55,039 bases of DNA from Desulfovibrio sp. (lineage in GTDB: Bacteria > Desulfobacterota > Desulfovibrionia > Desulfovibrionales > Desulfovibrionaceae): positions 1-55,039 of the forward strand of contig JAISMY010000076.1 in the NCBI GenBank assembly GCA_031276485.1, read 5' to 3'. Shown one piece after another: positions 27,158 to 55,039 of this stretch. The translations under genes and the position numbers were made by a program. Below the pieces are notes generated by a model, which did no database searches, was not told the DNA's origin, and saw only the letters and a program-made list of their open reading frames with translations. Numbering within the stretch: the stretch's first letter is position 1; each line of letters opens with the position of its first letter.

Positions 27158-27166
27158 TAATGCTGA

Positions 27167-27345
27167 GGAAACGCCGATTAAATGCGGAAAAGGCAAAAGA
27201 CGGCAAGCCGGATTCTTCGCCGGACGACGAATGTTCGGCCTTTCGCCCTGCTCAGGCGGAGGCTCGGAATGACCGCGCTTTTATCATTCTGAGCGCAGCG
27301 AAGAATCCGTCCCCATGCCTTTCAAAAGAATAAATCAGCGTTTCC
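27167..27345 (+). repeat. Inverted-repeat (MITE-like) element, family 1 copy A, between motA and motB
   Basis: Left end GGAAACGCCGATTAAATGCGG; right end reverse complement GGAAACGCTGATTTATTC; internal CATTCTGAGCGCAGCGAAGAATC; matches 30392-30587 and 39440-39618. Confidence 0.8.
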
Positions 27346-27392
27346 CCAAGTCAAAAGTGTAACCGCAATAACGGTTTCGGACGGAGGTTATA

Positions 27393-39439: not shown

Positions 39440-39618
39440 GGCAACGCTGCTTTATTCTTTTGAAAGGCATGAGGATGGATTCTTCGCTGCGCTCAGAATG
39501 ACAAAAGCGTGGTCATTCCGAGCCGCAGCAAGCGTGGTCATTCTGAGCCGCAGCGAAGCGAAGGCGAAGAATCCATCTTGATGTCTTTTGTCCTTTCCGC
39601 ATTTAATCAGCGTTTACC
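39440..39618 (-). repeat. Inverted-repeat element, family 1 copy C
   Basis: GCAACGCTGCTTTATTCTTTTGAAAGGCATGAGGATGGATTCTTCGCTGCGCTCAGAATGACAAAAGCGTGGTCATTCCGAGCC matches the reverse complement of copy A; right end ATTTAATCAGCGTTTACC; strand relative to copy A. Confidence 0.8.
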
Positions 39619-47615: not shown

Positions 47616-49748
47616 TCATGCTCCGTGCGGACCGGTGCAAAGGGAAAGGGCTTTTTCCAGAAATTTCAGCCCCCGGTCCGCCGCAAGCTGCGGATCCTTC
47701 AACGTCCCGTCCTGAAGCAGCACATTGTCGCACAGAATGAGCGCCGCTTCGGGGATGCGCCCGTCCTCGGGGTTCTTGAGGTACAGGCGCAGCAGGGAAC
47801 GGATCAGCGGGTGATCCGGATTCACTTCAAGAATGCGCGGCGGCGTTTCTTCCTTCTGCTGCACGGCGCGCATGAGCTTTTCCATGGCCGAGGTCATGCC
47901 CTCGGGCGCGGCAAGTAAGGCCGGACCGCCCGCAGGGCGGGAGGACAGGCGGACGTCCTGGACCTTTGCCGCCAGTACGGCGCGCAGCAAACCGAGCAGC
48001 TTGTCCAGGCCGGCTTTTTCGTCGTCGCCCAGAGCCTCCGCTTGCGGCGCGGATTCCCCGATGTCCGGAAAGGCGTCGAGCGCCCCTGCTTCCGCCTGCT
48101 CCACGGACTTGAACGCATGCTCCTTGTATGTGCCCAAGGCGTCAAGGGCAAGCTCGTCCACGGCGTCAAAAAGGTACAGCACCTCTATGCCCTTGCGCCG
48201 GAAGCTCTCCATGTACGGACTGACCTCCGCCGCCTCGGGTGAGGGCGCGACAAGGTGCCAGATTTCCTTTTGGCCTTCCTTGGCCCGTTCCAGATAGTCG
48301 TCAAGTCCGGTCAGACCGCCGGGGGATGAGGACGAGGCAAAACGCAGCAGGGTCGCCGCCCGCCCGCGGTTCACATAGTCGTGAAAGGCAAAACGCAGGT
48401 ATTTGCCGTGCAGTTTCCAGAACTTCGCGTACTTTTCCTTGTCTGAAGCCGCCGTTTTTTCCAGATGATCCAGCACCCGGCGCGTGATTGTCCCGGATAC
48501 GGCGCGGAGCAGGGCATTTTCCTGCAGGGTTTCCCGCGAAATGTTCAACGGCAGGTCTTCGGCGTCCACCACTCCGCGCAGGAATCCCAGGTAATCGGGG
48601 ACAAGCCCGGCGGCCGATCGCGCGATCAGCACACGCCGCGCGTAAAGGTCCGGACCCCGGCGCTCGCGCAGTGCGAGAAAGGGGTCCTGCTCCGTGCCGG
48701 GGATGAACATCAGGGCATTGAACTGTATGGGCGCATCGGCGGAAAAATGGACGAAGTCCAGAGGCTCCGCCGTATCATACGTCAGCTGCTTGTAAAACTC
48801 CGCATACTGCTGCGGAGTCACGGAAAATTTCGGCTCCCGCCAGAGCGCGGGGCTGGTGTTGATCAGCTCGCCTTCCAGGTAAATCGGGAAAGGCAGAAAA
48901 TTCGAATGCTTGCGGATAACGGCTTCAATCCGGTATTTTTCCAGAAATTCTTTATCTTCCGCCTTGAGTTTTGCCCGGACAACGGTGCCGCGTTTGTAGG
49001 GCGCGGCTTCTTCGCCTTCCAGGGCGCGGATGGTAAAGCCGCTCCGGCCGTCGGAACTCCAGATGTGCGGGCTTTCGTCGCCCTGAGCGGGTACGGAAAC
49101 GACCTCCACAAAGTCGGCGACCATGAACACCGAATAAAAGCCTATGCCGAAGCGGCCGATGATCTGTGTTCCGCCGGCGGCCGCCGCCGTCCGTCCGGAA
49201 TCGTCGTCCGCCCTGCGCGAAGTTGCCTCACCGGCATCGCCGGTGCCGCGCGCGGAGTTCTCTTTGTCCGTATCCGGAGCCTCCTCCGTTCCGTCCACGC
49301 CTCCGAAGCCGTCCGTACCCTCTGCCGGCCTCGGCGTCCCATCCGGAGATTCAGTAGAGGCCGGCGCGTCCCCGTCTGCCGGAGGAGTATCTTTATTCGC
49401 CGTTGCGCCGGCGGCCGCTTCCAAGCCCCGAACAAAGTCTTCCGAGCCGGATTTGGCGATGGTTCCCAGGTTGTCGGCCAGTTCCGCGGCGTTCATGCCC
49501 ACGCCGCTGTCCTGAATTTGCAGGACGCCGGCGATCTTGTCCACCGTGATGCGGATTTCCGGGGCTTGCCCGTCGTCGCGCGTACTCTCGCCCCTGCTCT
49601 GCAGGAAGCGCAGTTTGTCCAGGGCATCGGACGCGTTGGAAAGCAGCTCACGCAGGAAAATCTCCCTGTCCGCGTATAGAGAATGCGTAAGGATATTAAG
49701 GACTTTTGCTGTTTCTGCCTGAAATGTGCGTTGTGTGGTCGCAGCCAT
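47616..49748 (-). CDS. htpG: Molecular chaperone HtpG (Hsp90) with internal acidic low-complexity insertion
   Basis: FQAETAKVLNILTHSLYADREIFLRELLSNASDALDKLRF, QDSGVGMNAAEL, IIGRFGIGFYSVFMVAD. Confidence 0.95.
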   Translation of the reverse strand: MAATTQRTFQAETAKVLNILTHSLYADREIFLRELLSNASDALDKLRFLQSRGESTRDDGQAPEIRITVDKIAGVLQIQDSGVGMNAAELADNLGTIAKSGSEDFVRGLEAAAGATANKDTPPADGDAPASTESPDGTPRPAEGTDGFGGVDGTEEAPDTDKENSARGTGDAGEATSRRADDDSGRTAAAAGGTQIIGRFGIGFYSVFMVADFVEVVSVPAQGDESPHIWSSDGRSGFTIRALEGEEAAPYKRGTVVRAKLKAEDKEFLEKYRIEAVIRKHSNFLPFPIYLEGELINTSPALWREPKFSVTPQQYAEFYKQLTYDTAEPLDFVHFSADAPIQFNALMFIPGTEQDPFLALRERRGPDLYARRVLIARSAAGLVPDYLGFLRGVVDAEDLPLNISRETLQENALLRAVSGTITRRVLDHLEKTAASDKEKYAKFWKLHGKYLRFAFHDYVNRGRAATLLRFASSSSPGGLTGLDDYLERAKEGQKEIWHLVAPSPEAAEVSPYMESFRRKGIEVLYLFDAVDELALDALGTYKEHAFKSVEQAEAGALDAFPDIGESAPQAEALGDDEKAGLDKLLGLLRAVLAAKVQDVRLSSRPAGGPALLAAPEGMTSAMEKLMRAVQQKEETPPRILEVNPDHPLIRSLLRLYLKNPEDGRIPEAALILCDNVLLQDGTLKDPQLAADRGLKFLEKALSLCTGPHGA

Positions 49749-49833: not shown

Positions 49834-49914
49834 ACATATTGCTCCACCGAATAAACATTGCCGGAGAGTTTTTACCTATGGATAGATACAATCAGAGTAT
49901 CATATAAAAATTAC

Positions 49915-50013
49915 GGGAACCTCTAAAAACCCTTTTCCAGACGGGATTGAGTGTTGTAAATTCAGTATTTGTCAGGTCGGCATATGACATAAATTTAGTT
50001 TTTAGAGGTTCCC
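49915..50013. mobile_element. 99-bp MITE-like element, perfect 16-bp TIRs and TTAC target duplication
   Basis: GGGAACCTCTAAAAAC (49915-49930) and GTTTTTAGAGGTTCCC (49998-50013); TTAC at 49911-49914 and 50014-50017. Confidence 0.88.
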
Positions 50014-50274
50014 TTACGAGAGTTTTTACCTATAGATAGATAACATCATAGCAACATAGCAACATCACAAAATTACAAGTTTTTCCGAGCTGTGTCGAGG
50101 CGTTGAGAAACATCCTGACAACATGCTTATTTTATAATATTTTTGTGCAGAAAATCTATCCGTTGATGTACACTCTCGGCATTTTACTTGAACACATTAC
50201 AGGAGGCGCAGGCTTGAGAGGCATGCGAGAACCAATTTCCGCCGGAAAAGCATGTTCAAGCACATCAGACCGCT

Positions 50275-54511: not shown

Positions 54512-55039
54512 CGGCTATGTAATTACAGGATGAGTCTGCGGTGCGCTCTTAGGCCCTACAATCAGCCTACAATCATGGCGCATTCTGCGCGTCCGAAAGC
54601 ATGTCCGGAAATATGTTGCTTATCCGCCCTTCGTGAACTAATTATTTTGCATAAGCATATCTGAAAACAGAGTTATCAGCCTGTTATGGTTCACCCTCTG
54701 TCGGCGCCGGCGCTCTTCCACGTTTTCATATTTCATACCAAGTTGGCGGCAATAGGCAGTTATTTTATAAAAATATGCTAAATTTATCAGTATAATACGA
54801 TGGATATTTCATCGAATTTACACTGTATTGATTGCAACTTGGTATCACTTGGCAGGCAAGTCCTTCTCCGGTTGCGAGCATGTCCCGCCTGACCTTGGCG
54901 ACCCTGAAAAACGGCGCAAACCCGAGAGGAGACGTGTGTCAAAAAAACCGGAAAATCGTCGAAAATCGACAGGAAGGGCATCCGAACGCGAAGTAACGGC
55001 ATAAAAAATCACCAATGGAGCAAAAGAGCATCCTGAAAA

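Follow-up and report, generated by a model that had tools for sequence, protein, structure and literature searches.

Structure and setting of the MITE

We identify the 99-bp element at 49915-50013 of the window (the whole stretch of 55,039 nucleotides analysed here, from a Desulfovibrio sp. genome assembly) as an IS5-type MITE that is most likely mobilised by a full-length, transposase-encoding IS5-type element with which it shares its ends, a reading to which we assign a probability of about 0.93. The element, designated family 1, is one of several repeats in this part of the window, and the features referred to below are as follows.

49864-49914, plus strand: first 51 bp of a family 2 repeat, which is cut off precisely at the MITE and whose final four bases form the left TTAC
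49911-49914, plus strand: left copy of the 4-bp target-site duplication, TTAC
49915-50013, plus strand: 99-bp non-coding MITE of family 1 (20 near-complete copies in the genome)
49915-49930, plus strand: left terminal inverted repeat (TIR), GGGAACCTCTAAAAAC
49998-50013, minus strand: right TIR, the perfect complement of the left one
50014-50017, plus strand: right copy of the 4-bp target-site duplication, TTAC
50018-50177, plus strand: near full-length family 2 repeat (160 bp; family about 152-166 bp)
54736-54844, plus strand: MITE-like family 3 copy of 109 bp with ends TACCAAGTTG...CAACTTGGTA and a 3-bp duplication, TCA

The window sequence at 49911-50017 reads TTAC-GGGAACCTCTAAAAAC...GTTTTTAGAGGTTCCC-TTAC, and the two terminal 16-mers are perfect inverted copies of each other. 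The GGGAACCTCTAAAAAC 16-mer has two sites with zero mismatches in the window, against a chance expectation of 0.32 at up to 3 mismatches. The 99 bp are free of ORFs, so that the element has no coding capacity and lies, without a transposase, within the 50-500 bp of MITEs. It is situated about 170 bp upstream of the start of htpG (47616-49748, minus strand), its left neighbour, in the gap before a minus-strand ORF of 414 aa on the right that is followed by TRAP transporter genes. An earlier note, written from the letters of this DNA, had described a non-coding 99-bp element with perfect 16-bp TIRs and a TTAC duplication between htpG and the TRAP region; on rereading, the element agreed with this description exactly, and the neighbouring ORFs bear out the placement. 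The note had described these gene surroundings correctly and missed the two family 2 repeats that flank the MITE directly. In the simplest history, a truncated and a near-complete family 2 copy would already have been adjacent, and the MITE would have inserted where they met, between ...AAAAATTAC and GAGAGTTTTT....

Copies in the genome

Copy numbers were derived from DNA searches of the element's own genome, a draft of 2.23 Mb in 116 contigs that is about 87% complete. The GGGAACCTCTAAAAAC 16-mer, with up to 2 mismatches, occurs at 45 sites genome-wide, compared with 1 site for a reversed-pattern control. The search with the family 1 element gave 22 matches, i.e., 20 near-complete dispersed copies and two partial ones (a copy without one end beside a full copy on contig C26, with which it forms a partial tandem pair at 68414-68595, and a single fragment). 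Both ends could be resolved for 19 copies. Of these, 18 have a length of exactly 99 bp and one of 98 bp; the 4-bp duplication is exact in 13, matches at three of four positions in five and at two of four in one. The six copies without an exact duplication count against the proposed model. The targets are AT-rich (TTAC, TACA, ATAA, TAAA, TGAA, TTTA and others), and the TIR arms of the other copies differ from each other by 0-3 mismatches.

No base differs between the window copy and the one on contig C83 (100% identity), while pairwise divergence within the family ranges from 0 to 22%, a spread which indicates that family 1 has moved both over a long time and recently. Two sub-groups were apparent in the alignment, CCCTTTTCC...GGGATT and CTCTTTTCC...GGAATT. 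Two further species of the genus carry relatives of family 1 with 72-85% identity; in GTDB genome contigs there was one exact match, from the Desulfovibrio sp. MAG Nc350_bin1 (element and flanks correspond to G013:C84), and no family 1 copy was found in the viral contigs searched.

A complete IS of IS5 type with matching ends

In a sister species (G008, contig C16) we found a complete IS of 1,308 bp that begins with GGGAACCTCTAAAAAC, ends with ATTTTTAGAGGTTCCC, is bordered by TAAA left and right and codes for a protein of 353 aa. This protein scored 292 bits against NCBIfam NF033581 (IS5 family transposase, transpos_IS5_4; curated cut-off 140) and also matched PF01609 (99.6 bits) and PF05598, which places the IS, with its DDE transposase above the curated cut-off, in the IS5 family. 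A PDB sequence search with the transposase returned weak matches to PPR repeats alone, which we judged to be chance.

The ends of the same IS are present in the genome that carries the MITE: right ends with 98% identity over 117-118 bp run off contigs C13 and C30; on contig C45 the same happens with a left end (87%) that includes the first 27 codons. No complete transposase ORF of this 353-aa IS5 type is contained in the assembled genome, a point against the proposed model. IS ends located at contig ends are the picture usually given by a multicopy IS that has been collapsed in a short-read assembly, and we infer that intact copies are present in this genome. Pieces of the IS were detected in 7 of 15 genomes of the genus. 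One further IS copy in the sister species (G008:C81:8435-8721) has an internal deletion (bases about 117-339 are absent) and is possibly a step from an IS to a miniature element.

MITE and IS have the 15-16 bp of their ends and the length of the 4-bp duplication in common, apart from position 16, where the IS right end has T and the MITE end C. Because of these shared ends and duplications, mobilisation in trans by this IS5-type transposase is the probable route. The transposase of the full-length element would most likely bind the two 16-bp ends of the non-autonomous, IS5-family-type MITE, and would then mobilise it and insert it at 4-bp AT-rich targets, duplicating them (here TTAC). The earlier note had proposed recent transposition in trans by an IS with the same TIRs. 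Recent movement is supported by the two identical copies at different sites (the window and C83), and the trans step is suggested by the shared ends and duplications. Two of the checks it had named, for an IS with matching TIRs around a transposase ORF and for other 99-bp copies genome-wide, gave the former in the sister species (with its ends in the own genome) and the latter in 20 near-complete copies.

Beyond the ends, the resemblance between MITE and IS is weak and restricted to one side (CTTTTCCAGACGG against the IS right end, CTCTTCCAAACCGG); the best test of internal similarity gave p of about 0.015-0.02, uncorrected for eight comparisons, and being marginal it does not establish descent of the MITE from the 1,308-bp IS in particular. 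The MITE is best placed either among elements that have mostly the TIRs in common with the IS (type II as defined in PMC10969869) or among derivatives that arose long ago by deletion from a related IS.

Empty sites

The joined flanks of the other family 1 copies were searched against the 15 genomes of the genus. For the copy on contig C17, an uninterrupted counterpart (90% identity) was recovered in three sister species: the own genome has TTTA-element-TTTA, two of the sisters have a single TTTA, and one has GTTA. The copies on contigs C83, C56 and C21 are nested within a family 3 repeat. When the MITE and one TAAA are removed from the C56 sequence, the result, TTTTTATAAAATAACTGCC, is the sequence of an uninterrupted family 3 copy in the window (54755-54778, minus strand). 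The family 3 copy at 54736-54844 is an uninterrupted counterpart of the C56 insertion site.

For the window copy itself, no empty site was found among relatives. Homology to the closest relatives stops at about 49806, and since synteny is lost just upstream of htpG, there is no orthologous site with which it could be compared; the empty sites that the earlier note had looked to were therefore obtained for the C17 copy and not for the window copy. The combination that the note had named as fatal to its reading, a single copy with neither an IS bearing these ends nor an empty site, does not apply.

Alternative explanations

The alternative that weighs most is that another, unseen transposase (e.g., of an IS5-type element with CTCTTTTCC inner ends) moves the MITE, the 1,308-bp IS sharing its terminal bases only. 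The marginal resemblance of the inner sequences speaks for this, as do the several end variants of such elements in the genus (GGGCACC, CTACAAAC, CTATAAAC), whereas the match to the IS comprises the first 15-16 bp of both ends together with the duplication length, and no second full-length element with the MITE ends was found in the 15 genomes of the genus, which are fragmented drafts. We regard this explanation as unlikely, and the 1,308-bp IS type as the better candidate.

The strong predicted fold of the element (-37.6 kcal/mol, z -5.5) and its position between two genes of the same strand, upstream of htpG, could also suggest a dispersed structured RNA or a regulatory hairpin (terminator, REP-like) that is kept for its fold. 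A strong single-strand hairpin is, however, what inverted ends produce, and among 18 distinct copies there were 0 compensatory changes in the 16 TIR pairs, pairing being no better than in column shuffles, which implies that the hairpin is not maintained as an RNA structure. Moreover, the element matched no Rfam family, the terminator scan gave no terminator-like site, and the precise 4-bp duplications and the empty site do not fit such an origin. On the pair counts and the two scans we rejected this explanation, whose probability we consider very small. Smaller still, to the point of being negligible, is the probability that duplication or recombination, and not transposition, dispersed the copies as remnants: the partial tandem pair on C26 and the repeats flanking the window copy would agree with it, but the flanks of the copies are unrelated, most copies have their own 4-bp duplication, and the clean empty site is at odds with it, so that it is refuted for most copies. 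An IS5-type MITE moved by the transposase of an IS with the same ends remains our preferred reading of family 1.

Comparison with known elements

The partner IS is, like other members of the IS5 family, an element with a single ORF for an IS5-type DDE transposase, whereas the MITE is a 99-bp element without a transposase. The best matches to the partner transposase include IS1168/IS1169 of Bacteroides (51% identity to an IS1169-type protein), elements whose ends are only loosely similar to those described here. An IS5 transposase on a Roseovarius plasmid, 47% identical, is flanked by GGGCACCTCTAAAAATTG on one side and, on the opposite side, by GGGCACCTCGAT, an imperfect counterpart of it.

That IS transposases move MITEs is well known for bacteria (PMC10969869). 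Chunjie of Geobacter uraniireducens and QMITE1/QMITE2 of Coxiella (PMC10969869) are likewise short and non-coding, with TIRs and direct repeats, and are present in tens of copies; family 1 differs from them in TIR sequence and host, and compared with the QMITE and Chunjie families, both of variable size, it is shorter, at 99 bp, and its copies vary unusually little in length. REP/REPIN sequences are also short, dispersed inverted-repeat DNA, REPs being described as palindromes of 20-40 bp (PMC3733652); in contrast, the 99-bp unit of family 1 makes 4-bp target duplications and has its ends in common with an IS5 element. A search of the open literature found no paper describing MITEs in Desulfovibrio. 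Family 1 is a new family of IS5-type MITEs, of a kind of element that is already known; in other respects it is an ordinary mobile element, and nothing points to a new mechanism. Its value lies in providing a clean and checkable MITE-IS pair with empty sites in Desulfovibrio-type MAGs.

Neighbouring and nested repeat families

Family 2 occupies about 41 places in the genome and has the ends GAGAGT...ACTCTC; no target duplication was visible in its copies. Within one family 2 copy there is a 97-bp insertion (L229, G000:C45:5087-5183). Family 3 comprises about 21 near-complete copies, with an exact 3-bp TNA duplication in 17 of 20. Within the IS5 family, elements of the IS1031-type branch usually make a duplication of this sort.

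What is mildly interesting in these observations is that three to four miniature families are nested in a single small genome; from the position of family 1, within family 3 copies and next to family 2, the order of miniature-element bursts could be worked out. More tentatively, the Desulfovibrio lineage may be a hotspot in which several unrelated miniature families multiplied at the same time and inserted into each other time and again through the action of a few transposases; we consider this conceivable, with the odds somewhat against it. The assembly shows few complete IS elements. If the lineage is such a hotspot, family 1 would belong to a MITE community of several families, and the order of the expansions would be preserved in those of its copies that lie within other MITEs.

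A fourth inverted-repeat element, whose ends resemble GGGAAACGCTGATTAA and which contains an inner ATTCTGAGC...GAAGAATCC palindrome, occurs twice in the window, at 27166-27346 and at about 39441-39618; one of its copies interrupts a family 3 copy on contig C41 (L231, G000:C41). Another sister species (G005) has a MITE family of its own, 137-142 bp long with ends GGGAACCTCTACAAAC / GGGAACCTCTATAAAC (e.g., C97:8859-9000 and C10:5892-6028), for which 43 end sites were counted in all.
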